Shown here piece after piece: positions 9,166 through 48,679 of a stretch of DNA of 64,000 nt. The notes under the pieces are model-generated. The model was not told the origin of the DNA, did no database searches, and saw only the letters and a list, made by a program, of their open reading frames with translations. The DNA is taken from the NCBI GenBank assembly GCA_003194525.1, contig NBIV01000408.1:1-64000 (forward strand). The letters run 5' to 3'. Numbering within the stretch: position 1 is the first letter of the stretch; every line of letters starts with the position of its first letter. The position numbers were made by a program, and so were the translations under genes. This stretch comes from Gracilariopsis chorda. Lineage: Eukaryota; Rhodophyta; Florideophyceae; Gracilariales; Gracilariaceae.

Positions 9166-10378
9166 GCTTGGTAGATGTCAACAAACAGCACAGGTGCGAT
9201 GAAAGACCTACGGCACTTAAGTAGTACAAAAATGGCAACAACGACAACAATAACAACAAAAACAACAACAACAACAAAACTTCAAATTCGGGCGCACTGA
9301 TGGGAGAAACTACCTCCGCTACCCTAGGGTGTCGGACCCCTGGCCCCCAGAGATGCTCCGGGTACAAGACGTCTTCTTCTGTCTTCCCTCTCCTACGTCT
9401 AAGGAGAAGATGCGTCGCTCTCTACGAGGCTTCCAGAGGATGGTTAATGACCCAAGATATGCCTTCACCAAGTATAACCCTCTCTGGCCTCTTGCAAGAA
9501 CTTGCGCGACCTCGCAACTGAAGCTACTATGGCAACCAAAGTACGCTGCTAACGCGCAACCACTTAAGGTCACACGCGGCCTGATCCTAAGAAGGAGGTC
9601 AGCCTACGCCACGTCGCCTCCCCGCACAAACGCCCAAGGGTCAGATGCACGGATCAAAAGCTCGTTATGGAATACCTTCGCAACAGCCCAAGAATCCCGA
9701 CACGCAGTCAGGATCAAAACAAATAATTCAATCACCCGCACCAGCGCAGTACGCCACGGCACCCCGTCCACAGATGCACCCGCTGAACTTACCAGGTCTT
9801 AACGACCGTCACCGTTATCTGTCCAAATGGACCGGTGGGAAGCCGCTCGACAGTACACCCGCTTTGGTTCAAGCCGCCAGGCTCACGTCCCCGGATACCT
9901 GGAATCACCCAAAGTAACCCGGATCAACCGCTCGTCGCACTGGACACCAGATGATGATTAAGAAACACGAAAAACAAACAACTGCTGAGCACACGATCAC
10001 GGAGCCCAGACTTCGAAACTAGACCGACTCGACCTCACGGATACGACCCGACAAACGACTCGGGGATCCCAAAACACAAGATAGAGGGAGTGTCACACAC
10101 AAAGTAGATAGCGAACGACAACACCGGCAACAACGGAGGCCCAACTCAACAACGATAGGAAGTAACCGTCGAACCACTACCACCACAACGCCCTCAGGGA
10201 GGAAGGCAAACCCAAGGAGAATGACCAACACCGACCAACAATGGGATCAAGACACCCGACGCAACGACGAAGGAGGCAACAACAGCGAAACGGATGAACG
10301 GCGGTGAGGGAGAGCGGCGACAGACGAACGATACGGAAAGGGATAGCGGCAGTGGTCAGCGGGGCTGGGCCCATAACC
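9166..10378 (-). other. F1 copy B leader with PBS
   Basis: Leader between gag and LTR1. PBS at 10365-10378 (GGTTATGGGCCCAG on the sense strand, initiator tRNA-Met anticodon arm). Structured-RNA candidate at 9289-9496; CAA/ACA-rich repeat about 9236-9280. No sense-strand gene. Confidence 0.75.
9289..9496 (-). promoter_or_regulatory. Structured leader RNA candidate, F1 copy B
   Basis: Same block as 24825-25032, including the near-invariant GGTAGCGGAGGTAGTTTCTC core. The hairpin-3 pairing CCGGAG/CTCCGG is altered in this copy by a G-to-A-type difference near 9351 (sense CTCTGG), giving a wobble pair. Confidence 0.45.
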
Positions 10379-13719: not shown

Positions 13720-14938
13720 GCTTGGTAGATGTCAACAAACAGCACAGGTGCGATGAAAGACCTACGGCACTTAAGTAGTACAAAAATGGCAACAACGACA
13801 ACAATAACAACAAAAACAACGACAACAACAACAACAAAACTTCAAATTCGGGCGCACTGACGGGAGAAACTACCTCCGCTACCCTAGGGTGTCGGACCCC
13901 TGGCCCCCGGAGATGCTCCGGGTACAAGACGTCTTCTTCTGTCTTCCCTCTCCTACGTCTAAGGAGAAGATGCGTCGCTCTCTACGAGGCTTCCAGAGGA
14001 TGGTTAATGACCCAAGATATGCCTTCACCAAGTATAACCCTCTCTGGCCTCTTGCAAGAACTTGCGCGACCTCGCAACTGAAGCTACTATGGCAACCAAA
14101 GTACGCTGCTAACGCGCAACCACTTAAGGTCACACGCGGCCTGATCCTAAGAAGGAGGTCAGCCTACGCCACGTCGCCTCCCCGCACAAACGCCCAAGGG
14201 TCAGATGCACGGATCAAAAGCTCGTTATGGAATACCTTCGCAACAGCCCAAGAATCCCGACACGCAGTCAGGATGAAAACAAATAATTCAATCACCCGCA
14301 CCAGCGCAGTACGCCACGGCACCCCGTCCACAGATGCACCCGCTGAACTTACCAGGTCTTAACGACCGTCACCGTTATCTGTCCAAATGGACCGGTGGGA
14401 AGCCGCTCGACAGTACACCCGCTTTGGTTCAAGCCGCCAGGCTCACGTCCCCGGATACCTGGAATCACCCAAAGTAACCCGGATCAACCGCTCGTCGCAC
14501 TGGACACCAGATGATGATTAAGAAACACGAAAAACAAACAACTGCTGAGCAAACGATCACGGAGCCCAGACTTCGAAACTAGACCGACTCGACCTCACGG
14601 ATACGACCCGACAAACGACTCGGGGATCCCAAAACACAACATAGAGGGAGTGTCACACACAAAGTAGATAGCGAACGACAACACCGGCAACAACGGAGGC
14701 CCAACTCAACAACGATAGGAAGTAAACGTCGAACCACTACCACCACAACGCCCTCAGGGAGGAAGGCAAACCAAAGGAGAATGACCAACACCGACCAACA
14801 ATGGGATCAAGACACCCGACGCAACGACTAAAGAGGCAACAACAGCGAAACGGATGAACGGCGGTGAGGGAGAGCGGCGACAGACGAACGATACGGAAAG
14901 GGATAGCGGCAGCGGTCAGCGGGGCTGGGCCCATAACC
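13720..14938 (-). other. F1 copy C leader with PBS
   Basis: PBS at 14925-14938, structured-RNA candidate at 13849-14056, CAA/ACA-rich repeat about 13790-13840. Near-identical to the copy B leader. No sense-strand coding sequence. Confidence 0.75.
13849..14056 (-). promoter_or_regulatory. Structured leader RNA candidate, F1 copy C
   Basis: Same block as 24825-25032. Hairpin 3 is CCGGAG/CTCCGG as in the array copies. Confidence 0.5.
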
Positions 14939-17427: not shown

Positions 17428-18645
17428 GCTTGGTAGATGTCAACAAACAGCACAGGTGCGATGAAAGACTTACGGCACTTAAGTAGTACAAAAATTGCAA
17501 CAACGACAACAATACAACAAAAAGAACGACAAAAACAACAACAAAACGTCAAATTCGGGCGCACTGACGGGAGAAACTACCTCCGCTACCCTAGGGTGTC
17601 GGACCCCTGGCCCCCGGAGATGCTCCGGGTACAAGACGTCTTCTTCTGTCTTCCCTCTCCTACGTCTAAGGAGAAGATGCGTCGCTCTCTACGAGGCTTC
17701 CAGAGGATGGTTAATGACCCAAGATATGCCTTCACCAAGTATAACCCTTTCTGGCCTCTTGCAAGAACTTGCGCGACCTCGAAACTGCAGCTACTATGGG
17801 AACCAAAGTACGCTGCTAACGCGCAACCACTTAAGGTCACACGCGGCCTGATCCTAAGAAGGAGGTCAGCCTACGCCATGTCGCCTCCCCGCACAAACGC
17901 CCAAGGATCAGATGCACGGATCAAAAGCTCCTTATGGAATACCTCTGCAACAGCCTAAGAATCCCGACACGCAGTCAGGATCAAAACAAATAATTCAATC
18001 ACCAGCACCAGCGCAGTACGCCACGGCACCCCGTCCACAGATGCACCCGCTGAACTTACCAGGTCTTAACGACCGTCACGGTTATCTGTCTAAATGGACC
18101 GGTGCGAAGCCGCTTGACAGTACACCCGCTTTGGTTCAAGCCGCCAGGCTCACGTCCCCGGATACCTGGAATCACCCAAAGTAACCCGGATCAACCGCTC
18201 GTCGCACTGGACACCAGATGATGATTAAGAAACACGAAAAACAAACAACTGCTGAGCACACGATCACGGAGCCCAGACTTCGAAACTAGACCGACTCGAC
18301 CTCACGGATACGACCCGACAAACGACTCGGGGATCCCAAAACACAAGATAGAGGGAGTGTCACACACAAAGTAGATAGCGATCGACAACACGGGCAACAA
18401 CGGAGGCCCAACCCAACAACGATAGCAAGTAAACGTCGAACCACTACCACCACAACGCCCTCAGGGAGGAACGCAAACCAAAGGAGAATGACCAACACCG
18501 ACCAACAATGGGATCAAGACACCCGACGCAACGACGAAAGAGGCAACAACAGCGAAACGGATGAACGGCGGTGAGGGAGAGCGGCGACAGACGAACGATA
18601 CGGAAAGGGATAGCGGCAGTGGTCAGCGGGGCTGGGCCCATAACC
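17428..18645 (-). other. F1 copy D leader with PBS
   Basis: PBS at 18632-18645; structured-RNA candidate at 17556-17763; the CAA-rich tract is shorter and more broken than in B and C. No sense-strand gene. Confidence 0.72.
17556..17763 (-). promoter_or_regulatory. Structured leader RNA candidate, F1 copy D
   Basis: Same block as 24825-25032, with the helix-forming segments present. As in the array copies, the sense strand reads GAAAGGGTTATA just before the GGTTA arm. Confidence 0.45.
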
Positions 18646-19424: not shown

Positions 19425-19878
19425 GTCACACTATGGGGAGGGAACTGGAGCGGAGTATCTTAACGCTCAACAGCGAGGGCGCCAGCGGAGACCGTGTAAC
19501 CAAGTCTCAACGCTCGTCCAGAGGCGTCTGGTACGCGAATCACAGGCGGAGGTCGGGTCCTCTACGCCCGGAGTATACTCACGAGTAGCTCTGAAGCAAA
19601 CTCGGAAATGAAAATAACTTCGTAAGGGCGGGCGCACTGACGGGAGAAAATACCTCCGCTACCCTAAGGGTTGAACCCCTGGACCCTGGTAACTCTCTCC
19701 GGGTGAGGTACGAAATTCTTCTTGACCTACCCTGTTCTGCGCACTTCAGAACGAGCGGCTTTACAATCCGTACGCGTCGTCCCAGGTAGGTTTGTAGCTC
19801 TTGCGATAAGCGTTCACGAGTTAACCCCTGCTAGACACTTCCAGGAAAATAGCGCGGTCTTCCTTGTGCGCTGAAGCA
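19425..19878 (-). mobile_element. Divergent F2-type leader fragment
   Basis: The reverse complement aligns co-linearly with the F2 leader at about 21560-22015. Shared landmarks include GAGTATACTCCGGGCG, TCTGGACGAGCGTTGAGAC and ACACGGTCTCCGCTGGC. It is clearly more diverged than the array copies are from each other. One end is cut by the copy D LTR1, the other by the LTR2 at 19879; the PBS is lost. No gene is seen in it. Confidence 0.75.
19629..19845 (-). promoter_or_regulatory. Structured leader RNA candidate, divergent F2 variant
   Basis: Third version of the leader fold. Hairpin 2 is GTTCTG/CAGAAC (19747-19752 and 19734-19739) with a 7-nt loop; its stem differs from both F1 and F2 but is fully paired. 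Helix 1 keeps GGTT/AACC with CTAG/CTGG outside it (one wobble). Hairpin 3 is weaker (CCCGG/CCAGGG with a bulge). Hairpins 4 (GGGT/ACCC) and 5 (GGAG/CTCC) are kept. Confidence 0.5.
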
Positions 19879-21498
19879 TGTTGATGTTAGCACATGGTCG
19901 AGTGCCTGGTAGTCCTGGGACATCATGGTGCAGCACTTGGAAACAAAGTTTCATATAACGGAGGGCTGTTTTTGAGAGCTGGTTTGCAAGAGCGCATATG
20001 CGTGTGTTCTCAAACCCCACGTGAAACGGGCATATGATTGGCTACTGCAAATAGTCATATACAACGTATTGGTTACAAGTGTTATGCATTCTATGGGTCC
20101 TGCGCACGGAACTGGCCACTTGGCATAACGTGAATGGGCATTGTACTTAGTAATATGTGTGGCTACATCTGGTGTAAAGGTACATGCAGGTGTTGCATAT
20201 GTGCAGTTGTGCAAGTAAGCACGTGCCATGCACGCAACACACCTAGGGTATGTGCATGGATGTGGTGGCATGTGAACTTGTGCTTTGTCATAGTCATGAT
20301 GATGCAAGTAACTGTTTACACAGTGCTGTCACATGCTGGCACATTATTGGCATGTCTGGTTCACTTGTTGCGCATTGTTGGCTGCTTGGTTCACTTGGTA
20401 TTGTTGAAATTTGTAAGGAAGTTGAGGGGATGGAAGGGAAGTTCGCCAGCTCTAGCTTGGATTTACTTGGAGGTCCTTCAGGCACATCGTATATACCACT
20501 CTAAACTCGAATTGCGCGGGAACACCAACTACAAGTAAAACCTAAACCACTAAGCAGGGACACTCAATACTACCAATCATCATCTAACATGACATATCCA
20601 GCTCAGCACAACCTCATTACATCAACGGACACCAGCGCACCAACGTTCCGTAATAGTTACGTGCATACACATGACCATGACAAGGCACAAATTCACGACT
20701 CCAACACACGCCAGCACATGCCAACACATCACGGTAAGTCAACACGTCACGGTAAGTCGGCACGTAACCTGTGGTGTTAGTGCCATGTCATCAAGTGGCA
20801 ATGCATCAAGTGGCAATGCACACAACACCCACGTCATCAATATACCCGTGCATGTGTAAACCGGTTGACAGTGCATGCGCACCTTACCATTGTACCAACC
20901 ACTGCTGTACCAATTGTACCAGGTGTCAACCACTTCACCAGTATCCCCTGCACACAACGTACACTGTGACTACTGTAGTAGCTGGACACGTGGGTGTGTC
21001 CAACCGATCCAGTTATGCCATACCACTTGTACGCACCACGTTGCATATGTACATTTTCAGTAGCCGATCGGAAGCCAGTTTCACGTTGGGTTCGCGCACA
21101 CGCGCATATGCACTTTTGCAGAGGTACCCTCCAAAACAGCCCATGCTTCCCGGAACATTTGGTTTTCAGTGACAGCACAGGTACTACTGCCAACAGGTAT
21201 GGTTGTAATGTGTTGTTATGTTCTTATGCATGGTTGTACTAAGCTGGAATCAGTGTGTGCAACCCTTATCGTGTTATGTTTGATTATGATTGGTAGTATT
21301 GGGTGTCCCCACTTAGTGGTGTAGGGTTTTTTTGTAGTGGTAGTGCGAAGTAGATGTGCTATATAAGACTCTGAAGTCGCAGTACCAAGTAAACTCGCCT
21401 CCAAGCCTGGCAACCTTCACTCTTTATTTTCTTTCTTTCTTTCCTTTTCATTTCTGCCAAAGCCCAACATCATCTATCAACATCATTTCATATCAACA
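19879..21498 (+). mobile_element. LTR2 (5' LTR of the F2 gag copy), split by a solo LTR1
   Basis: LTR2 runs 19879-20401 and resumes at 21201, ending CATATCAACA at 21498 (about 821 bp without the insert). TATATAAG near 21360 and a TTTC repeat follow. Its 3' end differs from the LTR2s at 6775 and 22861 (which end CATCATCA), so two LTR2 subtypes exist. The F2 PBS follows directly. Confidence 0.85.
20402..21195 (-). mobile_element. Solo LTR1 with target duplication GGTAT
   Basis: 794 bp, full termini (TGTTGG...CAACA on the sense strand) and no internal region. Flanked by GGTAT at 20397-20401 and 21196-21200, a perfect 5-bp target duplication. It is 15 bp longer than the usual 779 because of a tandem duplication of ATCAAGTGGCAATGC around 20790-20818. 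Solo LTRs arise by LTR-LTR recombination of a full element. Confidence 0.92.
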
Positions 21499-22148
21499 GG
21501 TTATGGGCCCAGAGCGTCGATATTTGCAGACGTTGCTCCGTTTTAACTTCTTTTATTTTGCGTGCGCGCGTAAGATCGAGCTAATATCCTGCAAGAGACC
21601 AGCACGGGTTAACTGGTGAAAGCATATCGCGCTTGTTAGTAACCTCCCTGGGACGTTTCTTACGGATTGAGCACCCTACTCGTGAAGTGCAGGGAGTAGG
21701 GCAGGTCGAAGAAAATCGCACCTCGAACCTGGAGAGAGCATCTAGGGTCCAGGGGTTCAACCCTTAGGGTAGCGGAGGTAGTTTCTCCTGTCAGTGCGCC
21801 CGTCTTTGCGAAGTTTCATCTTTTATATTGTTTTCCGAGTGCGCTTCAGAGCCACTTTTGAGTATACTCCGGGCGTCGCGTACCCGAACTCCGCCTGTGA
21901 TTCGCGTACGGGACGCGTCTGGACGAGCGTTGAGACTTTTTTACACGGTCTCCGCTGGCATCTGAGCTGTTGAGTGTCGACAAATCTCTACTCCAGTATC
22001 TCTTTCTTACTGTGACATCAGCTACAATTCAGCGCCTGTACCGCCATCTTTCTCTTTAATCCCAGCTGATGGTCGATTCAAGGCATCGAGTCCCTCACTC
22101 TGCTACATTTGTTTTAATTACTTTGGTATTTGAACTCCTTCTGGAACA
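21499..22148 (+). other. F2 leader with PBS, unit 1
   Basis: PBS GGTTATGGGCCCAG (21499-21512) directly follows the LTR2 end, the same half-tRNA initiator-Met site as in F1. About 650 bp then precede the gag ATG; they contain the structured-RNA candidate (21590-21802) and no sense-strand gene I can support. Confidence 0.78.
21590..21802 (+). promoter_or_regulatory. Structured leader RNA candidate, F2 (unit 1)
   Basis: Helix 1: CCAG (21599) and GGTTA (21607) pair with TAACC (21640) and CTGG (21648). Hairpin 2: CCCTACTC (21674-21681) with GAGTAGGG (21694-21701). Hairpin 3: CCTGGA (21728-21733) with TCTAGG (21741-21746; TCCAGG in other units, so T21743 makes a wobble). Hairpin 4: GGGT/ACCC. Hairpin 5: GGAG/CTCC within GGTAGCGGAGGTAGTTTCTC. 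Same order and spacing as the F1 leader, with different stem sequences in hairpins 2 and 3. Equivalent positions: 29436-29648, 37282-37494, 45125-45337, 52918-53130, 60758-60970. Confidence 0.55.
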
Positions 22149-22860: not shown

Positions 22861-23162
22861 TGATGATGTAAACGATAGTGTAAAGATGATGTTGGGCTTC
22901 GGCAGAAATGAAAAGGAAAGAAAGAAAGAAAATACAGAGTGAAGGTTGCCAGGCTTGGGGCGAGTTTACTTGGTAGTGCAACTTCAGCGTGTTATATAGC
23001 ACCTCTACGTCACACTACAACTACAAGAAAACCCTATACCACTAAGTGGGGACACCCAATACTACCAATCATAATCAAACATAACACGATAAGGGTTGCA
23101 CACACTGATTCCAGCTTAGTACAACCATGCATAAGAACATAACAACACATTACAACCATACC
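22861..23162 (-). mobile_element. LTR2 3' part, inverted (unit 1)
   Basis: Reverse complement of the last ~302 bp of LTR2, ending CATCATCA at 22861 and cut at ATACC (23158-23162) by an F1 insertion. Its first ~118 bp on the sense strand (from GGTATGG to CTTAGTGGT) match the plus-strand LTR2 of the same unit exactly; the remainder differs at many sites and lacks the CATATCAACA end. The TATA region reads TATATAAC. Confidence 0.85.
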
Positions 23163-23941
23163 TGTTGGCAGTAGTACCTGTGCTGTCACTGAAAACCAAA
23201 TGTTCCGGGAAGCATGGGCTGTTTTGGAGGGTACCTCTGCAAAAGTGCATATGCGCGTGTGCGCGAACCCAACGTGAAACTGGCTTCCGATCGGCTACTG
23301 CAAATGTACATATGCAACGTGGTGCGTACAAGTGGTATGGCATAACTGGATCGGTTGGACACACCCACGTGTCCAGCTACTACAGTAGTCACAGTGTACG
23401 TTGTGTGCAGGGGATACTGGTGAAGTGGTTGACACCTGGTACAATTGGTACAGCAGTGGTTGGTACAATGGTAAGGTGCGCATGCACTGTCAACCGGTTT
23501 ACACATGCACGGGTATATTGATGACGTGGTTGTTGTGTGCATTGCCACATGATGACATGGCACTAACACCACAGGTTACGTGCCGACTTACCGTGACGTG
23601 TTGACTTACCATGATGTGTTGGCATGTGCTGGCGTGTGTTGGAGTCGTGAATTTGTGCCTTGTCATGGTCATGTGTATGCACGTAACTATTACAGAACGT
23701 TGGTGCGTTGGTGTGCGTTGGTGTAATGAGGTTGTGCTGAGCTGGCTATGTCATGTTAGATGATGATTGGTAGTATTGAGTGTCCCTGCTTAGTGGTTTA
23801 GGTTTTATTTGTAGTTGGTGTTCCCGCGCAATTCGAGTTTAGAGTGGTACATAAGATGTCTCTGAAGGACCTCCAAGTAAATCCAAGCCAGAGCTGGCGA
23901 ACTTCCCTTCCATCCCCTCAACTTCCTTACAACTTTCAACG
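23163..23941 (+). mobile_element. LTR1, 5' LTR of the array F1 copy (unit 1)
   Basis: 779 bp. Two changes stand out: TATA is TACATAAG, and the 3' terminus is CAACG instead of CAACA, so the conserved CA dinucleotide used by integrase is lost. It is inserted at the same GGTAT/ATACC position of LTR2 as the solo LTR1 at 20402, in the opposite orientation. Other units: 31009-31787, 38855-39633, 46698-47473, 54488-55266, 62325-63103. Confidence 0.9.
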
Positions 23942-24824
23942 GGTTATGGGCCCAGCCCTGCCGACCGCTGCCGCTATCCCTTTCCCTCATCGCTCGTCTG
24001 TCGCCGCTCTCCCTCACCGCCGTTCATCCGTTTCGCTGTTGTTGCCTCTTTCGTCGTTGCGTCGGGTGTCTTGATCCTATTGTTGGTTGGTGTTGGTCAT
24101 TCTCCTTTGGTTTGCGTTCCTCCCTGAGGGCAATGTGGTGGTAGTGGTTCGACGTTTACTTCCTATCGTTATTGCGTTGTTCCTCCCTTGTTGCCCGTGT
24201 TGTCGCCCGCTATCTATTTTGTGTGTGAAATTCCATCTATCTTGTGTTTTGGGATCCCCGAGTCGTTTGTCGGGTCGTATCCGTGAGGTCGAGTCGGTCT
24301 AGTTTCGAAGTCTGGGCTCCGTGATCGTGTGCTCAGCAATTGTTTGTATTTCGTGTTTCTTGGTCATCATCTGGTTCCCAGTGCGACGAGCGGTTGATCC
24401 GGGTTACTTTGGGTGATTCCAGGTATCCGGGGACGTGAGCCTGGCGGCTTGAACCAAAGCGGGTGTATTGTCGAGCGGCTTCCCACCGGTCCATTTGGAC
24501 AGATAACGGTGACGGTCGTTAAGACCTGGTTAGTTCAGCGGGTGCATCGGTGGACGGGGTGCCGTGGCGTACTGCGCTGGTGCGGGTGATTGAATTATTT
24601 GTTTTGATCCTGACTGCGTGTTGGGATTCTTGGGCTGTTGCGAAGGGATTCCATAACGAGCTTTTGATCCGTGCATCTTACCCTTAGGCGTTTGTGCGGG
24701 GAGGTGACGTGGCGTAGGCTGACCTCCTTCTTAGGATCAGGCCGCGTGTGACCTTAAGTGGTTGCGCGTTAGCAGCGTACTTTGGTTCCCATAGTAGCTT
24801 CAGTTGCGAGGTCGCGCAAGTTCT

Positions 24825-25032
24825 TGCAAGAGGCCAGAAAGGGTTATACTTGGTGAAGGCATATCTTGGGTCATTAACCATCCTCTGGAAGCCTCGTAGA
24901 GAGCGACGCATCTTCTCCTTAGACGTAGGAGAAGGCAGACGGAAGAAGACGTCTTGTACCCGGAGCATCTCCGGGGGCCAGGGGTCCGACACCCTAGGGT
25001 AGCGGAGGTAGTTTCTCCCGTCAGTGCGCCCG
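24825..25032 (+). promoter_or_regulatory. Structured leader RNA candidate, F1 (unit 1, reference)
   Basis: Opens with TGCAAGAGGCCAG. Helix 1: CCAG (24834-24837) and GGTTA (24842-24846) pair with TAACC (24875-24879) and CTGG (24885-24888) around a GGTGAAGGCATATC-containing loop. Hairpin 2: CTTCTCC (24912-24918) with GGAGAAG (24928-24934). Hairpin 3: CCGGAG (24960-24965) with CTCCGG (24969-24974). Hairpin 4: GGGT-CCGAC-ACCC. Hairpin 5: GGAG-GTAGTTT-CTCC. It closes with GTCAGTGCGCCCG. The same helices at the same places in the F2 leader suggest an RNA-level function such as packaging, dimerisation or translation control; that is inference. Other units: 32671-32878, 40517-40724, 48351-48553, 56144-56353, and 63987 to the edge. 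Confidence 0.55.
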
Positions 25033-25161: not shown

Positions 25162-27237
25162 ATGGATTCATTCGGTGGCATCAAGATTGAAACGTTGGGC
25201 GAGGATAACTTCCATGTATGGAAGCAAAAGGTTGAGTTGCTGCTTGCACTCAAGGACCTCAATGACCATCTTGAATCCACCAGGCCTACGGAAGATGACG
25301 AGTTTTCAGCATGGAAGAAGAAAGACGCCAAGGCCAGGGCTGTTATTGGTCTCAGCATTAGTGATGAGCATTTGGACCATGTGAGGGATACCGAGAATGC
25401 TGCGGAAATGTGGAAAGCCATTTGCGATGTGTTCCAGCGTAAAACGCTGCTCAACCGAATCAATGCAAGACGTGCCTTCTACACAGCCAAGATGCGAGAT
25501 GATGAGAAAATGTTACACTTCATCAATCGTGTTCGTCATCTTGCATCGGATCTGAAGAGCATGGACGTAGTGGTTGAGGAAGAAGACATCGCTATGGCAA
25601 TCCTATGTGGGCTACCAGACCGCTTCGAACACCTCATTGTCGCTATTGACACCACGATTGGTGATCGCAAACTCGATTTAGAGTTTAAGAAGAGTCGTTC
25701 GATGCAAGAGGAACAGCGAATGAACGATCCTGCCAAGGAAAAGTCCGGAAGTGACACGGCTTTGGTCGGTGCGCAGTCACGAAAGAAGTCCAGGGTGTGC
25801 TACTACTGTGGTAAGAAGGGGCATATCCAGAGAAACTGTTTCAAGAGACAACGTGACGAAGCTAGCAAAGAGCAGAGTGCTGCCGCAAACCCAGCTGTGC
25901 AGACCGATCTCGGCAACGAGAAACGAGGATGTGACAGTGACTCTGACTTTGTTTGTCTCATTGCGACAGGTTCTGTGGAAGAAAGTATCAGTGACTGGAT
26001 TATTGACTCTGGTGCCACCGCCCATATGACGTATGACGAGTCCATGTTTGACAGTTATACCAAAAGAGAGTCTGGCGGTGTGAGCATCGGTAATGACTCG
26101 AAGCTGGAGTCTCTTGGTCATGGCAGTTTCCACCTCGATCTCGCTGTTGAAGGGCGTAAGAGCAAGTGCCGGTTGGGTGAAGTAGTGCACGTACCGAATC
26201 TAAGGTATCATCTGCTGTCAGTATCTACGATGTGTGACCTTGGTGCGCGAGTGGTGTTTGACAAAACCAAAGTATGTGTATACAAAGGCAACCCCATGAT
26301 CGCCCAGGGCCGTCGCATCAAAGGACTGTACTACCTATGTACCGCGATTGAAGTACCAGAAGACATGGACAACGCACTTGTGACTGACCTGTCACTATGG
26401 CATGCTCGAATGGCTCATGTGAATGTGGATGGTATCAAACATATGGCTCGTAACGGTGTTGTGTCAGGGCTGAATGTGGACTTGAATCAATCGATGGATG
26501 TGTGTGACTCTTGTGTAGTGGGAAAATCTACACGTGCTCCAACTCCCAAGCAAGGGGGGGAACGGGCTTTGCACCCATTGGACCTAGTGCAATCGGACAT
26601 TTGTGGTCCAATCCAAGTAGGTTCCTTGGGAGGTTCACGCTACTTCGTCACATTCATCGATGATCACTCCCGTTTTTGCTTCTTGTACATGCTCAAGACC
26701 AAGGATGAGGTGTTCCACGTGTTCGTGAAGTGGCTCAAGATGGTTCAAAATCAGAGTGACCGACATGTGAAAACCATCAACGCACGTCAGTCTGTGCTAC
26801 ATGCGTTACGCACAGACAATGCTGGTGAATATGTGTCAAAGAAGTTTTCACAAGAGCTTGAACGTCACGGTATTGAACATCAGCGAACGGTGCCTTACAA
26901 TCCACATCAGAATGGTCTGGCCGAACGGTTCAACCGAACACTCATGGACTTGGTGAGATCGATGCTGCATCACAAGAAACTGCCAAAGAGCTTCTGGGCT
27001 GAAGCATTGAACGTTGCAGTGTATGTGCGCAATCGAGTCACCTGCAAGGCCCTTCCGAGTGACGTGACACCACTCGAGATGTGGAGTGGATATGAACCTG
27101 ACTTGAGCAATCTGCGTGTGTTCGGTAGCCGGTGCTGGTACAAAGTGGTGGACCACAAGTTGAAGAAGCCGGAGCAACGTGCCGTAGAGGCGATCTTTAT
27201 TGGGTACACATCTGGATCGAACGGATACAAACTGTAG
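25162..27237 (+). pseudogene. F1 Gag-protease-integrase ending at a nonsense codon (unit 1)
   Basis: 691 codons from the same MDSFGGIKIE start as the other F1 copies. Gag, the CCHC knuckle (CYYCGKKGHIQRNC), DSGA protease, HHCC, and integrase D-D-35-E (SDICGP, RTDNAGEY, NGLAERFNR) are all present. The frame ends at TAG (27235-27237) where copy B has TGG for Trp in NGYKLWDAQ, so this is a single base change. The downstream RNase H frame at 27256 is in the same phase: only this TAG separates the two. Missense differences from copy B include IETLG, EFKKSRSMQ and NDPAKEK. Gag and integrase could in principle still be translated. Confidence 0.9.
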
Positions 27238-29041: not shown

Positions 29042-29994
29042 GGTATGGTTGTAATGTGTTGTTATGTTCTTATGCATGGTTGTACTAAGCTGGAATCAGT
29101 GTGTGCAACCCTTATCGTGTTATGTTTGATTATGATTGGTAGTATTGGGTGTCCCCACTTAGTGGTGTAGGGTTTTCTTGTAGTGGTAGTGCGAAGTAGA
29201 TGTGCTATATAAGACTCTGAAGTCGCAGTACCAATTAAACTCGCCTCCAAGCCTGGCAACCTTCACTCTTTATTTTCTTTCTTTCTTTCCTTTTCATTTC
29301 TGCCAAAGCCCAACATCATCTATCAACATCATTTCATATCAACAGGTTATGGGCCCAGAGCGTCGATATTTGCAGACGTTGCTCCGTTTTAACTTCTTTT
29401 ATTTTGCGTGCGCGCGTAAGATCGAGCTAATATCCTGCAAGAGACCAGCACGGGTTAACTGGTGAAAGCATATCGCGCTTGTTAGTAACCTCCCTGGGAC
29501 GTTTCTTACGGATTGAGCACCCTACTCGTGAAGTGCAGGGAGTAGGGCAGGTCGAAGAAAATCGCACCTCGAACCTGGAGAGAGCATCCAGGGTCCAGGG
29601 GTTCAACCCTTAGGGTAGCGGAGGTAGTTTCTCCTGTCAGTGCGCCCGTCTTTGCGAAGTTTCATCTTTTATATTGTTTTCCGAGTGCGCTTCAGAGCCA
29701 CTTTTGAGTATACTCCGGGCGTCGCGTACCCGAACTCCGCCTGTGATTCGCGTACGGGACGCGTCTGGACGAGCGTTGAGACTTTTTTACACGGTCTCCG
29801 CTGGCATCTGAGCTGTTGAGTGTCGACAAATCTCTACTCCAGTATCTCTTTCTTACTGTGACATCAGCTACAATTCAGCGCCTGTACCGCCATCTTTCTC
29901 TTTAATCCCAGCTGATGGTCGATTCAAGGCATCGAGTCCCTCACTCTGCTACATTTGTTTTAATTACTTTGGTATTTGAACTCCTTCTGGAACA

Positions 29995-30706: not shown

Positions 30707-33007
30707 TGATGATGTAAACGATAGTGTAAAGATGATGTTGGGCTTCGGCAGAAATGAAAAGGAAAGAAAGAAAGAAAATACAGAGTGAAGGTTGCCAGGC
30801 TTGGGGCGAGTTTACTTGGTAGTGCAACTTCAGCGTGTTATATAGCACCTCTACGTCACACTACAACTACAAGAAAACCCTATACCACTAAGTGGGGACA
30901 CCCAATACTACCAATCATAATCAAACATAACACGATAAGGGTTGCACACACTGATTCCAGCTTAGTACAACCATGCATAAGAACATAACAACACATTACA
31001 ACCATACCTGTTGGCAGTAGTACCTGTGCTTTCACTGAAAACCAAATGTTCCGGGAAGCATGGGCTGTTTTGGAGGGTACCTCTGCAAAAGTGCATATGC
31101 GCGTGTGCGCGAACCCAACGTGAAACTGGCTTCCGATCGGCTACTGCAAATGTACATATGCAACGTGGTGCGTACAAGTGGTATGGCATAACTGGATCGG
31201 TTGGACACACCCACGTGTCCAGCTACTACAGTAGTCACAGTGTACGTTGTGTGCAGGGGATACTGGTGAAGTGGTTGACACCTGGTACAATTGGTACAGC
31301 AGTGGTTGGTACAATGGTAAGGTGCGCATGCACTGTCAACCGGTTTACACATGCACGGGTATATTGATGACGTGGTTGTTGTGTGCATTGCCACATGATG
31401 ACATGGCACTAACACCACAGGTTACGTGCCGACTTACCGTGACGTGTTGACTTACCATGATGTGTTGGCATGTGCTGGCGTGTGTTGGAGTCGTGAATTT
31501 GTGCCTTGTCATGGTCATGTGTATGCACGTAACTATTACAGAACGTTGGTGCGTTGGTGTGCGTTGGTGTAATGAGGTTGTGCTGAGCTGGCTATGTCAT
31601 GTTAGATGATGATTGGTAGTATTGAGTGTCCCTGCTTAGTGGTTTAGGTTTTATTTGTAGTTGGTGTTCCCGCGCAATTCGAGTTTAGAGTGGTACATAA
31701 GATGTCTCTGAAGGACCTCCAAGTAAATCCAAGCCAGAGCTGGCGAACTTCCCTTCCATCCCCTCAACTTCCTTACAACTTTCAACGGGTTATGGGCCCA
31801 GCCCTGCCGACCGCTGCCGCTATCCCTTTCCCTCATCGCTCGTCTGTCGCCGCTCTCCCTCACCGCCGTTCATCCGTTTCGCCGTTGTTGCCTCTTTCGT
31901 CGTTGCGTCGGGTGTCTTGATCCTATTGTTGGTTGGTGTTGGTCATTCTCCTTTGGTTTGCGTTCCTCCCTGAGGGCAATGTGGTGGTAGTGGTTCGACG
32001 TTTACTTCCTATCGTTATTGCGTTGTTCCTCCCTTGTTGCCCGTGTTGTCGCCCGCTATCTATTTTGTGTGTGAAATTCCATCTATCTTGTGTTTTGGGA
32101 TCCCCGAGTCGTTTGTCGGGTCGTATCCGTGAGGTCGAGTCGGTCTAGTTTCGAAGTCTGGGCTCCGTGATCGTGTGCTCAGCAATTGTTTGTATTTCGT
32201 GTTTCTTGGTCATCATCTGGTTCCCAGTGCGACGAGCGGTTGATCCGGGTTACTTTGGGTGATTCCAGGTATCCGGGGACGTGAGCCTGGCGGCTTGAAC
32301 CAAAGCGGGTGTATTGTCGAGCGGCTTCCCACCGGTCCATTTGGACAGATAACGGTGACGGTCGTTAAGACCTGGTTAGTTCAGCGGGTGCATCGGTGGA
32401 CGGGGTGCCGTGGCGTACTGCGCTGGTGCGGGTGATTGAATTATTTGTTTTGATCCTGACTGCGTGTTGGGATTCTTGGGCTGTTGCGAAGGGATTCCAT
32501 AACGAGCTTTTGATCCGTGCATCTTACCCTTAGGCGTTTGTGCGGGGAGGTGACGTGGCGTAGGCTGACCTCCTTCTTAGGATCAGGCCGCGTGTGACCT
32601 TAAGTGGTTGCGCGTTAGCAGCGTACTTTGGTTCCCATAGTAGCTTCAGTTGCGAGGTCGCGCAAGTTCTTGCAAGAGGCCAGAAAGGGTTATACTTGGT
32701 GAAGGCATATCTTGGGTCATTAACCATCCTCTGGAAGCCTCGTAGAGAGCGACGCATCTTCTCCTTAGACGTAGGAGAAGGCAGACGGAAGAAGACGTCT
32801 TGTACCCGGAGCATCTCCGGGGGCCAGGGGTCCGACACCCTAGGGTAGCGGAGGTAGTTTCTCCCGTCAGTGCGCCCGAATTTGAAGTTTTGTTGTTGTT
32901 GTTGTCGTTGTTTTTGTTGTTATTGTTGTCGTTGTTGCCATTTTTGTACTACTTAAGTGCCGTAGGTCTTTCATCGCACCTGTGCTGTTTGTTGACATCT
33001 AATAAGC

Positions 33008-36037: not shown

Positions 36038-37840
36038 AGTCAGTGACAGAGGGGGGGTGTTGGCAGTAGTACCTGTGCTGTCACTGAAAACCAAATGTTC
36101 CGGGGAGCATGGTCTGTTTTGGAGGGTACCTCTGCAAACGCGCATATGCGCGTGTGCGCGACCCCAACGTGAAACTGGCTTCGCCAGCTCTAGCTTGGAT
36201 TTACTTGGAGGTCCTTCAGGCACATCTTATGTACCACTCTAAACTCGAATTGCGCTGGAACACCAACTACAAGTAAAACCTAAACCACTAAGCAGGGACA
36301 CTCAATACTACCAATCATCATCTAACATGACATAGCCAGCTCAGCACAACCTCATTACATCAACGCACACCAACGCACCAACGTTCCGTAATAGTTACGT
36401 GCATACACATGACCATGACAAGGCACAAATTCACGACTCCAACACACGCCAGCACATGCCAACACATCACGGTAAGTCAACACGTCACGGTAAGTCGGCA
36501 CGTAACCTGTGGTGTTAGTGCCATGTCATCAATATACCCGTGCATGTGTAAACCTGTTGACAGTGCATGCGCACCTTACCATTGTACCAACCACTGCTGT
36601 ACCACTTGTACCAGGTGTCAACCACTTCACCAGTATCCCCTGCACACAACGTATACTGTGACCACTGTAGTAGCTGGACACGTGGGTGTGTCCAACCGAT
36701 CCAGTTATGCCATACCACTTGTACGCACCACGTTGCATATGTACATTTGCAGTAGCCAATCAGAAGCCAGTTTCACGTTGGGTTCGCGCACACGCGCATA
36801 TGCGCTTTTGCAGAGGTACCCTCCAAAACAGCCCATGCTTCCCGGAACATTTGGTTTTCAGTGACAGCACAGGTACTACTGCCAACAGGTATGGTTGTAA
36901 TGTGTTGTTATGTTCTTATGCATGGTTGTACTAAGCTGGAATCAGTGTGTGCAACCCTTATCGTGTTATGTTTGATTATGATTGGTAGTATTGGGTGTCC
37001 CCACTTAGTGGTGTAGGGTTTTCTTGTAGTGGTAGTGCGAAGTAGATGTGCTATATAAGACTCTGAAGTCGCAGTACCAATTAAACTCGCCTCCAAGCCT
37101 GGCAACCTTCACTCTTTATTTTCTTTCTTTCTTTCCTTTTCATTTCTGCCAAAGCCCAACATCATCTATCAACATCATTTCATATCAACAGGTTATGGGC
37201 CCAGAGCGTCGATATTTGCAGACGTTGCTCCGTTTTAACTTCTTTTATTTTGCGTGCGCGCGTAAGATCGAGCTAATATCCTGCAAGAGACCAGCACGGG
37301 TTAACTGGTGAAAGCATATCGCGCTTGTTAGTAACCTCCCTGGGACGTTTCTTACGGATTGAGCACCCTACTCGTGAAGTGCAGGGAGTAGGGCAGGTCG
37401 AAGAAAATCGCACCTCGAACCTGGAGAGAGCATCCAGGGTCCAGGGGTTCAACCCTTAGGGTAGCGGAGGTAGTTTCTCCTGTCAGTGCGCCCGTCTTTG
37501 CGAAGTTTCATCTTTTATATTGTTTTCCGAGTGCGCTTCAGAGCCACTTTTGAGTATACTCCGGGCGTCGCGTACCCGAACTCCGCCTGTGATTCGCGTA
37601 CGGGACGCGTCTGGACGAGCGTTGAGACTTTTTTACACGGTCTCCGCTGGCATCTGAGCTGTTGAGTGTCGACAAATCTCTACTCCAGTATCTCTTTCTT
37701 ACTGTGACATCAGCTACAATTCAGCGCCTGTACCGCCATCTTTCTCTTTAATCCCAGCTGATGGTCGATTCAAGGCATCGAGTCCCTCACTCTGCTACAT
37801 TTGTTTTAATTACTTTGGTATTTGAACTCCTTCTGGAACA

Positions 37841-38552: not shown

Positions 38553-40853
38553 TGATGATGTAAACGATAGTGTAAAGATGATGTTGGGCTTCGGCAGAAA
38601 TGAAAAGGAAAGAAAGAAAGAAAATACAGAGTGAAGGTTGCCAGGCTTGGGGCGAGTTTACTTGGTAGTGCAACTTCAGCGTGTTATATAGCACCTCTAC
38701 GTCACACTACAACTACAAGAAAACCCTATACCACTAAGTGGGGACACCCAATACTACCAATCATAATCAAACATAACACGATAAGGGTTGCACACACTGA
38801 TTCCAGCTTAGTACAACCATGCATAAGAACATAACAACACATTACAACCATACCTGTTGGCAGTAGTACCTGTGCTTTCACTGAAAACCAAATGTTCCGG
38901 GAAGCATGGGCTGTTTTGGAGGGTACCTCTGCAAAAGTGCATATGCGCGTGTGCGCGAACCCAACGTGAAACTGGCTTCCGATCGGCTACTGCAAATGTA
39001 CATATGCAACGTGGTGCGTACAAGTGGTATGGCATAACTGGATCGGTTGGACACACCCACGTGTCCAGCTACTACAGTAGTCACAGTGTACGTTGTGTGC
39101 AGGGGATACTGGTGAAGTGGTTGACACCTGGTACAATTGGTACAGCAGTGGTTGGTACAATGGTAAGGTGCGCATGCACTGTCAACCGGTTTACACATGC
39201 ACGGGTATATTGATGACGTGGTTGTTGTGTGCATTGCCACATGATGACATGGCACTAACACCACAGGTTACGTGCCGACTTACCGTGACGTGTTGACTTA
39301 CCATGATGTGTTGGCATGTGCTGGCGTGTGTTGGAGTCGTGAATTTGTGCCTTGTCATGGTCATGTGTATGCACGTAACTATTACAGAACGTTGGTGCGT
39401 TGGTGTGCGTTGGTGTAATGAGGTTGTGCTGAGCTGGCTATGTCATGTTAGATGATGATTGGTAGTATTGAGTGTCCCTGCTTAGTGGTTTAGGTTTTAT
39501 TTGTAGTTGGTGTTCCCGCGCAATTCGAGTTTAGAGTGGTACATAAGATGTCTCTGAAGGACCTCCAAGTAAATCCAAGCCAGAGCTGGCGAACTTCCCT
39601 TCCATCCCCTCAACTTCCTTACAACTTTCAACGGGTTATGGGCCCAGCCCTGCCGACCGCTGCCGCTATCCCTTTCCCTCATCGCTCGTCTGTCGCCGCT
39701 CTCCCTCACCGCCGTTCATCCGTTTCGCCGTTGTTGCCTCTTTCGTCGTTGCGTCGGGTGTCTTGATCCTATTGTTGGTTGGTGTTGGTCATTCTCCTTT
39801 GGTTTGCGTTCCTCCCTGAGGGCAATGTGGTGGTAGTGGTTCGACGTTTACTTCCTATCGTTATTGCGTTGTTCCTCCCTTGTTGCCCGTGTTGTCGCCC
39901 GCTATCTATTTTGTGTGTGAAATTCCATCTATCTTGTGTTTTGGGATCCCCGAGTCGTTTGTCGGGTCGTATCCGTGAGGTCGAGTCGGTCTAGTTTCGA
40001 AGTCTGGGCTCCGTGATCGTGTGCTCAGCAATTGTTTGTATTTCGTGTTTCTTGGTCATCATCTGGTTCCCAGTGCGACGAGCGGTTGATCCGGGTTACT
40101 TTGGGTGATTCCAGGTATCCGGGGACGTGAGCCTGGCGGCTTGAACCAAAGCGGGTGTATTGTCGAGCGGCTTCCCACCGGTCCATTTGGACAGATAACG
40201 GTGACGGTCGTTAAGACCTGGTTAGTTCAGCGGGTGCATCGGTGGACGGGGTGCCGTGGCGTACTGCGCTGGTGCGGGTGATTGAATTATTTGTTTTGAT
40301 CCTGACTGCGTGTTGGGATTCTTGGGCTGTTGCGAAGGGATTCCATAACGAGCTTTTGATCCGTGCATCTTACCCTTAGGCGTTTGTGCGGGGAGGTGAC
40401 GTGGCGTAGGCTGACCTCCTTCTTAGGATCAGGCCGCGTGTGACCTTAAGTGGTTGCGCGTTAGCAGCGTACTTTGGTTCCCATAGTAGCTTCAGTTGCG
40501 AGGTCGCGCAAGTTCTTGCAAGAGGCCAGAAAGGGTTATACTTGGTGAAGGCATATCTTGGGTCATTAACCATCCTCTGGAAGCCTCGTAGAGAGCGACG
40601 CATCTTCTCCTTAGACGTAGGAGAAGGCAGACGGAAGAAGACGTCTTGTACCCGGAGCATCTCCGGGGGCCAGGGGTCCGACACCCTAGGGTAGCGGAGG
40701 TAGTTTCTCCCGTCAGTGCGCCCGAATTTGAAGTTTTGTTGTTGTTGTTGTCGTTGTTTTTGTTGTTATTGTTGTCGTTGTTGCCATTTTTGTACTACTT
40801 AAGTGCCGTAGGTCTTTCATCGCACCTGTGCTGTTTGTTGACATCTAATAAGC

Positions 40854-43883: not shown

Positions 43884-45683
43884 AGTCAGTGACAGAGGGG
43901 GGGTGTTGGCAGTAGTACCTGTGCTGTCACTGAAAACCAAATGTTCCGGGGAGCATGGTCTGTTTTGGAGGGTACCTCTGCAAACGCGCATATGCGCGTG
44001 TGCGCGACCCCAACGTGAAACTGGCTTCGCCAGCTCTAGCTTGGATTTACTTGGAGGTCCTTCAGACACATCTTATGTACCACTCTAAACTCGAATTGCG
44101 CTGGAACACCAACTACAAGTAAAACCTAAACCACTAAGCAGGGACACTCAATACTACCAATCATCATCTAACATGACATAGCCAGCTCAGCACAACCTCA
44201 TTACATCAACGCACACCAACGCACCAACGTTCCGTAATAGTTACGTGCATACACATGACCATGACAAGGCACAAATTCACGACTCCAACACACGCCAGCA
44301 CATGCCAACACATCATGGTAAGTCAACACGTCACGGTAAGTCGGCACGTAACCGGTGTTAGTGCCATGTCATCAATATACCCGTGCATGTGTAAACCTGT
44401 TGACAGTGCATGCGCACCTTACCATTGTACCAACCACTGCTGTACCACTTGTACCAGGTGTCAACCACTTCACCAGTATCCCCTGCACACAACGTATACT
44501 GTGACCACTGTAGTAGCTGGACACGTGGGTGTGTCCAACCGATCCAGTTATGCCATACCACTTGTACGCACCACGTTGCATATGTACATTTGCAGTAGCC
44601 AATCAGAAGCCAGTTTCACGTTGGGTTCGCGCACACGCGCATATGCGCTTTTGCAGAGGTACCCTCCAAAACAGCCCATGCTTCCCGGAACATTTGGTTT
44701 TCAGTGACAGCACAGGTACTACTGCCAACAGGTATGGTTGTAATGTGTTGTTATGTTCTTATGCATGGTTGTACTAAGCTGGAATCAGTGTGTGCAACCC
44801 TTATCGTGTTATGTTTGATTATGATTGGTAGTATTGGGTGTCCCCACTTAGTGGTGTAGGGTTTTCTTGTAGTGGTAGTGCGAAGTAGATGTGCTATATA
44901 AGACTCTGAAGTCGCAGTACCAAGTAAACTCGCCTCCAAGCCTGGCAACCTTCACTCTTTATTTTCTTTCTTTCTTTCCTTTTCATTTCTGCCAAAGCCC
45001 AACATCATCTATCAACATCATTTCATATCAACAGGTTATGGGCCCAGAGCGTCGATATTTGCAGACGTCGCTCCGTTTTAACTTCTTTTATTTTGCGTGT
45101 GCGCGTAAGATCGAGCTAATATCCTGCAAGAGACCAGCACGGGTTAACTGGTGAAAGCATATCGCGCTTGTTAGTAACCTCCCTGGGACGTTTCTTACGG
45201 ATTGAGCACCCTACTCGTGAAGTGCAGGGAGTAGGGCAGGTCGAAGAAAATCGCACCTCGAACCTGGAGAGAGCATCCAGGGTCCAGGGGTTCAACCCTT
45301 AGGGTAGCGGAGGTAGTTTCTCCTGTCAGTGCGCCCGTCTTTGCGAAGTTTCATCTTTTATATTGTTTTCCGAGTGCGCTTCAGAGCCACTTTTGAGTAT
45401 ACTCCGGGCGTCGCGTACCCGAACTCCGCCTGTGATTCGCGTACGGGACGCGTCTGGACGAGCGTTGAGACTTTTTTACACGGTCTCCGCTGGCATCTGA
45501 GCTGTTGAGTGTCGACAAATCTCTACTCCAGTATCTCTTTCTTACTGTGACATCAGCTACAATTCAGCGCCTGTACCGCCATCTTTCTCTTTAATCCCAG
45601 CTGATGGTCGATTCAAGGCATCGAGTCCCTCACTCTGCTACATTTGTTTTAATTACTTTGGTATTTGAACTCCTTCTGGAACA

Positions 45684-46395: not shown

Positions 46396-48679
46396 TGATG
46401 ATGTAAACGATAGTGTAAAGATGATGTTGGGCTTCGGCAGAAATGAAAAGGAAAGAAAGAAAGAAAATACAGAGTGAAGGTTGCCAGGCTTGGGGCGAGT
46501 TTACTTGGTAGTGCAACTTCAGCGTGTTATATAGCACCTCTACGTCACACTACCACTACAAGAAAACCCTACACCACTAAGTGGGGACACCCAATACTAC
46601 CAATCATAATCAAACATAACACGATAAGGGTTGCACACACTGATTCCAGCTTAGTACAACCATGCATAAGAACATAACAACACATTACAACCATACCTGT
46701 TGGCAGTAGTACCTGTGCTGTCACTGAAAACCAAATGTTCCGGGAAGCATGGGCTGTTTTGGAGGGTACTCTGCAAAAGTGCATATGCGCGTGTGCGCGA
46801 ACCCAACGTGAAACTGGCTTCCGATCGGCTACTGCAAATGTACATATGCAACGTGGTGCGTACAAGTGGTATGCATAACTGGATCGGTTGGACACACCCA
46901 CGTGTCCAGCTACTACAGTAGTCACAGTGTACGTTGTGTGCAGGGGATACTGGTGAAGTGGTTGACACCTGGTACAATTGGTACAGCAGTGGTTGGTACA
47001 ATGGTAAGGTGCGCATGCACTGTCAACCGGTTTACACATGCACGGGTATATTGATGACGTGGTTGTTGTGTGCATTGCCACATGATGACATGGCACTAAC
47101 ACCACAGGTTACGTGCCGACTTACCGTGACGTGTTGACTTACCATGATGTGTGGCATGTGCTGGCGTGTGTTGGAGTCGTGAATTTGTGCCTTGTCATGT
47201 CATGTGTATGCACGTAACTATTACAGAACGTTGGTGCGTTGGTGTGCGTTGGTGTAATGAGGTTGTGCTGAGCTGGCTATGTCATGTTAGATGATGATTG
47301 GTAGTATTGAGTGTCCCTGCTTTAGTGGTTTAGGTTTTATTTGTAGTTGGTGTTCCCGCGCAATTCGAGTTTAGAGTGGTACATAAGATGTCTCTGAAGG
47401 ACCTCCAAGTAAATCCAAGCCAGAGCTGGCGAACTTCCCTTCCATCCCCTCAACTTCCTTACAACTTTCAACGGGTTATGGGCCCAGCCCTGCCGACCGC
47501 TGCCGCTATCCCTTTCCCTCATCGCTCGTCTGTCGCCGCTCCCCTCACCGCCGTTCATCCGTTTCGCCGTTGTTGCCTCTTTCGTCGTTGCGTCGGGTGT
47601 CTTGATCCTATTGTTGGTTGGTGTTGGTCATTCTCCTTTGGTTTGCGTTCCTCCCTGAGGGCAATGTGGTGGTAGTGGTTCGACGTTTACTTCCTATCGT
47701 TATTGCGTTGTTCCTCCCTTGTTGCCCGTGTTGTCGCCCGCTATCTATTTTGTGTGTGAAATTCCATCTATCTTGTGTTTTGGGATCCCCGAGTCGTTTG
47801 TCGGGTCGTATCCGTGAGGTCGAGTCGGTCTAGTTTCGAAGTCTGGGCTCCGTGATCGTGTGCTCAGCAATTGTTTGTATTTCGTGTTTCTTGGTCATCA
47901 TCTGGTTCCCAGTGCGACGAGCGGTTGATCCGGGTTACTTTGGGTGATTCCAGGTATCCGGGGACGTGAGCCTGGCGGCTTGAACCAAAGCGGGTGTATT
48001 GTCGAGCGGCTTCCCACCGGGTCCATTTGGACAGATAACGGTGACGGTCGTTAAGACCTGGTTAGTTCAGCGGGTGCATCGGTGGACGGGGTGCCGTGGC
48101 GTACTGCGCTGGTGCGGGTGATTGAATTATTTGTTTTGATCCTGACTGCGTGTTGGGATTCTTGGGCTGTTGCGAAGGGATTCCATAACGAGCTTTTGAT
48201 CCGTGCATCTTACCCTTAGGCGTTTGTGCGGGGAGGTGACGTGGCGTAGGCTGACCTCCTTCTTAGGATCAGGCCGCGTGTGACCTTAAGTGGTTGCGCG
48301 TTAGCAGCGTACTTTTGGTTCCCATAGTAGCTTCAGTTGCGCAAAGTTCTTGCAAGAGGCCAGAAAGGGTTATACTTGGTGAAGGCATATCTTGGGTCAT
48401 TAACCATCCTGGAAGCCTCGTAGAGAGCGACGCATCTTCTCCTTAGACGAGGAAGGCAGACGGAAGAAGACGTCTTGTACCCGGAGCATCTCCGGGGGCC
48501 AGGGGTCCGACACCCTAGGGTAGCGGAGGTAGTTTCTCCCGTCAGTGCGCCCGAATTTGAAGTTTTGTGTTGTTGTTGTCGTTGTTTTTGTTGTTATTGT
48601 TTGTTGTTGCCATTTTTGTACTACTTAAGTGCCGTAGGTCTTTCATCGCACCTGTGCTGTTTGTTGACATCTAATAAGC

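Follow-up and report, generated by a model that had tools for sequence, protein, structure and literature searches.

To our knowledge, packaging signals of LTR retrotransposons have been defined for very few elements, and those do not align between families. In HIV-1, the psi/DIS leader comprises several hairpins, with a dimerisation site near a purine Gag-binding loop. The leader of MMTV is built on the same lines in the available part of its description (PMC8096270). Within Ty1/copia, the 5' RNA of Ty1 folds into a structure of about 300 nt (TIPIRT) on which translation start, packaging and reverse transcription depend in cis, and kissing hairpins are proposed to start its dimerisation, according to the accessible portion of the account (PMC5454406). 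In barley, copia packaging and dimerisation signals are kept even in the Gag-less BARE2, where the text available describes them as common to the close subfamilies BARE1 and BARE2 (PMC3735527). LTR elements can also bear small-RNA-like sequence, as do Cassandra, Helenus and Ajax, in which, as far as the accessible text goes, 5S rRNA or tRNA lies in the LTR of short non-autonomous elements (PMC10886601).

The DNA analysed here (the window) is a 64,000-nt stretch of the red alga Gracilariopsis chorda, part of contig NBIV01000408.1 (C408). A block of 207–217 nt lies between the primer-binding site (PBS) and gag in its copies of three copia families, F1, F2 and an F2 relative (F2r):

24825-25032, plus strand: structured leader block of F1 (lineage A), the reference copy
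32671-32878 and 40517-40724: 100% identical copies of the F1 block
48351-48553 and 56144-56348, plus strand: further copies of the F1 block
523-731, 9289-9496, 13849-14056 and 17556-17763, minus strand: further copies of the F1 block
63987 onwards: copy of the F1 block that leaves the window at its end
21590-21802, plus strand: structured leader block of F2 (lineage B)
29436-29648, 37282-37494, 45125-45337, 52918-53130 and 60758-60970: further copies of the F2 block
19629-19845, minus strand: structured leader block of F2r (lineage B)

There are thus ten F1 copies (nine inside the window, one running off its end), six of F2 and one of F2r. The three copies named in the initial annotation were located where it had placed them; they can be aligned over the full 207–217 nt, with a mean column identity of 80%. 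On sequence grounds, we read the block as a structured RNA module of Copia (Ty1/copia) genomic RNA that would act in cis in an AUG-poor PBS–gag leader. It resembles TIPIRT in being a structured 5' RNA of a Ty1/copia element. However, the Ty1 structure is, in the part of its description available, a pseudoknot that reaches into GAG and holds the PBS, whereas the present block lies between PBS and gag, has other helices and is common to three lineages (PMC5454406). The block itself, 91–884 nt past the PBS, does not form a TIPIRT-like pseudoknot enclosing that site.

The survey covered a single genome of 91.3 Mb in 1081 contigs. A 35-nt pattern from the 3' part of the block, allowing up to three mismatches, has 659 matches (324 + 335) in 91 Mb, against none for its reversed control at the same tolerance. 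From DNA searches (the best 40 places of each) and regions that were read, 108 block copies out of these 659 matches were examined. For the all-pairs covariation analysis, two truncated matches were set aside (108 matches, 86 distinct rows), while the analyses of block identity, AUG and stop content and the H2 loop dropped six partial copies and kept 102 of 108 (82 distinct). The copies belong to seven families: F1; F2, F2r and F4; and F3a, F3b and C4, the last known from a single diverged, decayed copy. Because F4 is akin to F2r (about 75% nucleotide identity in gag) and F3a to F3b (72% identity in RT), these represent three Copia lineages rather than seven: A (F1), B (F2, F2r, F4) and C (F3a, F3b, C4). 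An exclusion-pattern search for new families returned five matches, all variants of known ones. A 22-nt pattern and a looser 32-nt pattern had no exact matches in prokaryote and viral contigs, as expected of a collection without eukaryotes.

The initial annotation recognised no known RNA family in the block, and none of 4227 Rfam families matches the window at the gathering score. With E values up to 5, no match between 19000 and 25400 falls on a block, and two sub-threshold snoRNA matches both lie outside. Judged from titles and the starts of abstracts, the literature surveyed holds no recognisable description of the block; most subscription papers and all preprints fall outside this coverage.

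The carriers are Ty1/copia elements (Pseudoviridae), with a copia-type Gag and integrase ahead of RT in lineages A, B and C. The Pfam domains Retrotran_gag_2, gag_pre-integrs, rve and RVT_2 occur in this order in F1 (L022), F2r (L020, with RT cut short) and F3b (L012); RNase H is not among the Pfam matches of these three. Zinc knuckles in Gag are detected by Pfam in window F1 and F3b and by motif in F2r. Across families, gag starts 114–346 nt downstream of the block, as in the reference element:

25162-27237, plus strand: F1 gag–integrase reading frame, beginning 129 nt past the block

F3b is a 5.4-kb element present at >99% identity at seven sites (L012, L015, L016, L018, L019, L025 and L026), with LTRs of about 214 nt that are identical in three of five copies compared and a stop-to-stop frame of 1340 codons; these features indicate that it moved recently.

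A copia gag frame follows the block in 10 of 11 copies read in context, plus one further copy, and in L021 the F4 block is instead followed by LTR sequence. This association weighs against the idea that an ancestral element picked up the block as a non-coding RNA of its host, as does the lack of an Rfam match over the window at the gathering threshold. A compact, multi-helix module that is portable among element families is what such a capture might look like, and one divergent gene of the host might escape searches that each score the best 40 places. Nothing speaks positively for this origin, which the initial annotation had listed among its guesses, and we regard it as very improbable. The block resembles the sequences in Cassandra, Helenus and Ajax in its small-RNA-like character, but differs from what the accessible text reports of them in being an internal leader without Rfam match in elements that have gag and pol (PMC10886601).

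Copia copies, both in tandem and in inverted orientation, occupy the window, and beyond about 21 kb they recur with a period near 7846 nt. From 21190 to 63000, F2 pieces alternate with F1 elements in a tandem array of that period, and by eye the F1 copies in it appear to lack RT, the RT start running into RNase H. RT is absent there as judged from the reading frames, but an array of period 7846 may be DNA amplification, and it was therefore set aside as evidence of non-autonomous elements. Also by eye, a long inverted LTR-like pair (20420–21499 and 22880–23943) flanks the truncated internal region of an F2 copy, so that the composite unit is palindromic. Elsewhere, L028 (C123:9000–18900) is an F2-type tandem with a period of about 2825 nt that bears the block and has short frames only; it may be a non-autonomous derivative or else a tandem that arose at the DNA level. 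By eye, members of the F1/F2 group are concentrated near contig ends (C39, C61, C62, C64, C10, C21, C27, C52 and C101). Clustered copia copies, often at contig ends, are likewise described for CoLT, the centromeric Copia-like transposon of oomycetes, and by this analogy the window may be centromeric, although CoLT is set beside F1 by description only and the available part of that description includes no leader RNA (PMC7082073).

The RNA of the block is much better conserved than the proteins encoded behind it. Medoid blocks of different lineages are 66–78% identical when C4 is excluded, and the C4 block is 62–71% identical to those of lineages A and B. In contrast, Gag identity is 18.4% between A and C (250 columns) and 21.4% between B and C (220), with a local match of only 33 amino acids between A and B, and RT identity is 32.8% between A and C, 45.7% between A and B (105) and 29.2% between B and C (130). 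Outside the block, leaders cannot be aligned between the three lineages (the best match is 19 nt, E 0.087). In four of four comparisons within lineages, no other part of the leader is as well conserved as the block, which scores 0.76–0.81 against 0.17–0.75 for the flanks, where the upstream values for F4 and F3a are rough as their upstream ends lack a PBS anchor, and 0.64–0.79 for the first 300 nt of gag. Conservation of an RNA across lineages with such different Gags is surprising, and may mean a shared reader or an exchange of modules.

The following helices were resolved in the reference copy:

24830-24834 (GAGGC) with 24891-24895 (GCCTC), plus strand: helix P1 in F1; three of five pairs change two-sidedly across families
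24838-24842 with 24882-24886, plus strand: helix P2 in F1, with one A-C mismatch in this array
24858-24861 with 24869-24872, plus strand: helix P3, three of four pairs in F1
24911-24935, plus strand: hairpin H2, with an ACGT palindrome in its apical loop and a stem whose sequence varies by family yet pairs
24937-24954, plus strand: hairpin H3, AGAC/GTCT in F1
24959-24975, plus strand: hairpin H4, with a purine-rich apical loop (GAGAG) in lineages B and C
24978-24998, plus strand: hairpin H5, CC-AGGG/CCCT-GG, with A-U replacing G-C in F3a and F4
25004-25018, plus strand: hairpin H6, GGAGG/TCTCC, near-invariant and followed by GTCAGTGCGCCCG to 25032

Across families, P1 appears as GAGGC/GCCTC, GAGAC/GTTTC, GTGTC/GACAC, GGAAC/GTTCC and GAGGC/GCTTC, and in one F1 branch GATGC faces GCGTC. 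P2 is AAGGG/CCCTT, or AGAGG/CCTCT in two other aligned F1 copies. P3 has three of four pairs in F1 and F2r and is complete, with two-sided changes, in F2, F3a, F3b and F4. The stem of H4 is CCCGG/CCGGG in F1, CCTGG/CCAGG in F2 and CCGGG/CCCGG in F3, so that its third pair is U-A, C-G or G-C. In addition, TGCG at 25025–25028 may pair with TGCA at 24825–24828 (P0), but P0 and H6 hardly vary and are therefore uninformative on structure.

Much of the structure proposed in the initial annotation is retained here. Its second hairpin indeed has three unrelated stems that each pair, the GGAG/CTCC hairpin and the 3' block ending in GTCAGTGCGCCCG are near-invariant, and the hairpins that it numbered 2, 4 and 5 hold in F3a, F3b and F4, families it had not seen, and hold poorly in the decayed C4. 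The two-sided change it described in hairpin 3 is present, with AGAC/GTCT in F1 where F2 and F2r have AGGT/ACCT, but F3a, F3b and F4 have one mismatch each (by eye, the alignment being out of register). Its first helix, CCAG+GGTTA with TAACC+CTGG, required revision: CCAG/CTGG has no consistent register, GGTTA/TAACC breaks in F3 and C4 without compensation, and the covarying helices in their place are P1 and P2, with GTTA/TAAC as a possible inner extension of this region. H4 had been missed.

These helices emerge from a structure-blind scan, in which all four-pair helices in MAFFT alignments were ranked by two-sided change and the null re-placed substitutions along the tree. With seven rows, the ranking was P1, H2, P2 and P3 (level with an incompatible helix, 81–84/101–104), followed by H5. 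With 24 rows, it was P1, an incompatible helix (108–111/141–144), H2, P2, P3, H4 and H5. P1, P2, P3, H2, H4 and H5 are mutually compatible (nested). The top score was 1.48 with seven rows (null maximum 1.24) and 1.30 with 24 rows (null maximum 0.91), reached in neither case by any of 100 nulls. Helices with at least three covarying pairs numbered seven with 24 rows, against at most four in nulls, and six with seven rows, which one null in 100 equalled; the summed score was reached by 0/100 nulls with 24 rows and by 4/100 with seven. Compensatory change in nested helices therefore exceeds a phylogeny-aware null, the mark of a conserved structured RNA.

In a 13-row alignment, 93.2% of cells pair, and 55 cells are changed on both sides, compared with 18.8 ± 3.6 after shuffling and 4–13 after sliding; further pair types are no more numerous than in shuffled data (36 vs 36.0). 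Since the structure was partly derived from this same alignment, pairs were instead transferred by plain, structure-blind pairwise alignment. The number of transferred positions that pair exceeded the null mean in 18 of 18 comparisons, 11 of them with no null in 500 as high; F2 against F2r was the weakest (28/500). For example, F1 keeps 43 of the 44 F2r pairs (null 32.2 ± 2.3), and F3b keeps 47 of 47 (null 36.0 ± 2.3). Two-sided changes exceeded the null mean in 17 of 18 comparisons, the exception being C4 against F3a (none) and the weakest of the remainder F4 against F1 (60/500). Together, the scans and this transfer support the conserved, compensated RNA that had been proposed. An R-scape-like all-pairs analysis of the 86 rows with a tree-based null gave a single significant pair, 11–67 in P1 (E 0.02), because the alignment contains only three independent lineages; many non-pairs also score highly, reflecting shared descent. 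Thermodynamic stability was dropped as evidence of structure, as folding energies of four sequences are not below those of shuffled ones (z −1.05, 0.02, 0.26 and 0.34).

The fate of pairs in old copies indicates where selection acts. In 26 old F3a copies (mean divergence from the reference 12%), 1029 of at most 1222 cells are paired, against 989 ± 9.6 in the null and with no null in 300 as high. This is a small excess, perhaps due to shared subfamily changes, and pairs are nevertheless being lost. Single copies of F1, F2, F2r, F4 and F3b, at 18–32% divergence, keep 42–46 of 47 pairs, and C4 keeps 39; this count used a structure-fitted alignment, unlike the pairwise transfer. Loss in old F3a copies and retention among families fit selection for mobility in cis, not a host function of the copies. 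The fold is real and under selection in active elements, a conclusion we hold with high confidence. Matched two-sided changes keep the folds, and the block probably has an indispensable function, of which packaging of the RNA into particles would be an example.

The initial annotation would have given way had the block proved to be an ordinary coding exon. All three frames contain stops in seven of seven family medoids. Indeed, nothing favours a conserved coding exon, a chance resemblance or simply recent shared ancestry; the stops, the compensatory changes and the flanks that cannot be aligned between lineages make the likelihood of these explanations negligible.

The leader as a whole is depleted of AUG, as seen in five leaders from four families. 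Between PBS and gag, F1 has two AUGs in 1245 nt (L022) and two in 1220 nt (window), with 0/500 shuffles as low in each case; F3b has none in 773 nt (2/500), F2r one in 791 nt (4/500) and F2 two in 651 nt (19/500). Six of seven medoid blocks lack AUG (expected sum 7.3), while 24 of the 82 distinct copies have one, mostly in F3a. This depletion and the stops in every frame indicate that the block is non-coding and the leader probably scanned, so that an IRES would not be needed.

A translation or export element is nonetheless a candidate role. In one such explanation, the block would bind a constant host component (an export receptor, the ribosome, an RNA-binding protein) so that the intronless RNA is exported from the nucleus, stabilised or translated, in the manner of a constitutive transport element or an IRES. 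Constitutive transport elements are known from simple retroviruses. A fixed host partner predicts what is observed, namely a block that stays 66–78% identical (without C4) while Gags are 18–21% identical where alignable. However, the AUG-depleted PBS–gag leader fits scanning, which argues against an IRES as the sole entry, and an export element would not be tied to one position, yet wherever PBS and gag can both be placed the block is between them. A host-factor role is thus possible, if on balance unlikely.

The primer-binding sites of the carriers bear on a further alternative, in which the block positions the tRNA primer or RT at the initiation of reverse transcription. The following sites precede the block in F1 and F2:

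23942-23955, plus strand: F1 PBS, GGTTATGGGCCCAG, which with the next base forms 15 nt complementary to tRNA-Met(CAT) positions 26–40
21499-21512, plus strand: F2 PBS, 14 nt complementary to tRNA-Met positions 27–40

GGTTATGGGCCCAG is common to F1 and F2 copies (exact at all 16 sites; chance 0.02 with up to one mismatch), and matching tRNA-Met(CAT) genes are present in the same genome. Judged from this complementarity, the F1 and F2 sites are of the half-tRNA type, predicted to pair with the anticodon arm of tRNA-Met. Drosophila copia also uses a half-tRNA primer. In F3b, the sequence that starts after the LTR, TGGTAGCA, is complementary over 8 nt to the tRNA-Met 3' end, unlike the anticodon-arm sites of F1 and F2.

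All three lineages could therefore pair with the same tRNA-Met (15 nt in F1, 14 in F2, 8 in F3b). The block also lies in the leader downstream of the PBS, where Ty1, in the available portion of its description, has tRNA-complementary Boxes 0 and 1 (PMC5454406). Furthermore, the invariant tail (24994–25032 in the window) contains GGTAGC and TGCGCC, complementary to tRNA-Met positions 70–75 (3' end) and 9–14 (D arm), respectively, and present in F1, F2, F2r and F3b. Two such shared hexamers are not significant, however, as 333 of 5000 shuffled tRNAs do as well. The annealing site moreover varies by lineage, the distance from PBS to block ranges from 91 to 884 nt, and most helices of the block are uninvolved. 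An initiation element of this kind is accordingly rather improbable.

Among the functional guesses of the initial annotation, packaging or dimerisation is the best supported, and we infer it, tentatively and with slightly less than even confidence, to be the main role of the block. It fits best because of the position of the block, the AUG-poor leader, the palindromic H2 loop and the purine-rich H4 loop. Its place in an AUG-poor leader, after the PBS and ahead of gag, is that of psi/DIS signals. A palindrome of 4–6 nt occupies the H2 loop in 51 of 54 distinct copies of F1, F2, F2r, F4 and F3b (one F2 row left out): ACGT in F1; GCGC, TGCA, GTGCAC and TGCGCA in lineage B; and CGCG and TCGCGA in F3b. 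It is absent in C4 and present in seven among 12 F3a copies listed (27 in all). Palindromes of 4 nt are common by chance in such loops, and three lineages amount to three trials. By analogy only, the H2 palindromic loop and the H4 purine loop recall the dimerisation and Gag-binding loops of retroviral leaders, which in the available text on MMTV likewise have a dimerisation site near a purine-loop Gag-binding site among several hairpins; the function was shown there, whereas here it is deduced, and no sequence homology is known (PMC8096270).

Under packaging and dimerisation, the palindromic loop of H2 would be shown to a second RNA copy and make a kissing contact, while the zinc-knuckle region of Gag would bind H4, with its purine-rich loop, together with H5, H6 and the near-invariant 3' tail. 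Such binding would sort full-length RNA into particles. Several points count against this role. The RNA is conserved but Gag is only 18–21% identical, which a host-bound element explains at least as well; no dispersed non-autonomous element carrying the block was shown; and the invariant hexamers are complementary to the primer tRNA, albeit not significantly.

It is conceivable, though doubtful, that the one module common to three Copia lineages is a common-currency packaging RNA. Such a currency would persist either because one fold is recognised by different Gags (or by a host factor) or through swapping between families, which could occur by template switching in mixed particles. The barley elements resemble this case in keeping copia packaging and dimerisation signals even without Gag, but according to the available part of the report those signals are common to close subfamilies, not to lineages with Gags of about 20% identity (PMC3735527). 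If true, a common-currency module would let families mobilise each other's RNAs. With the fold come a covariance model that is ready for use, a natural series of compensatory variants and copies by the hundred. These make it possible to ask by what means copia RNA is selected, dimerised, primed or exported, and whether one signal serves several families.
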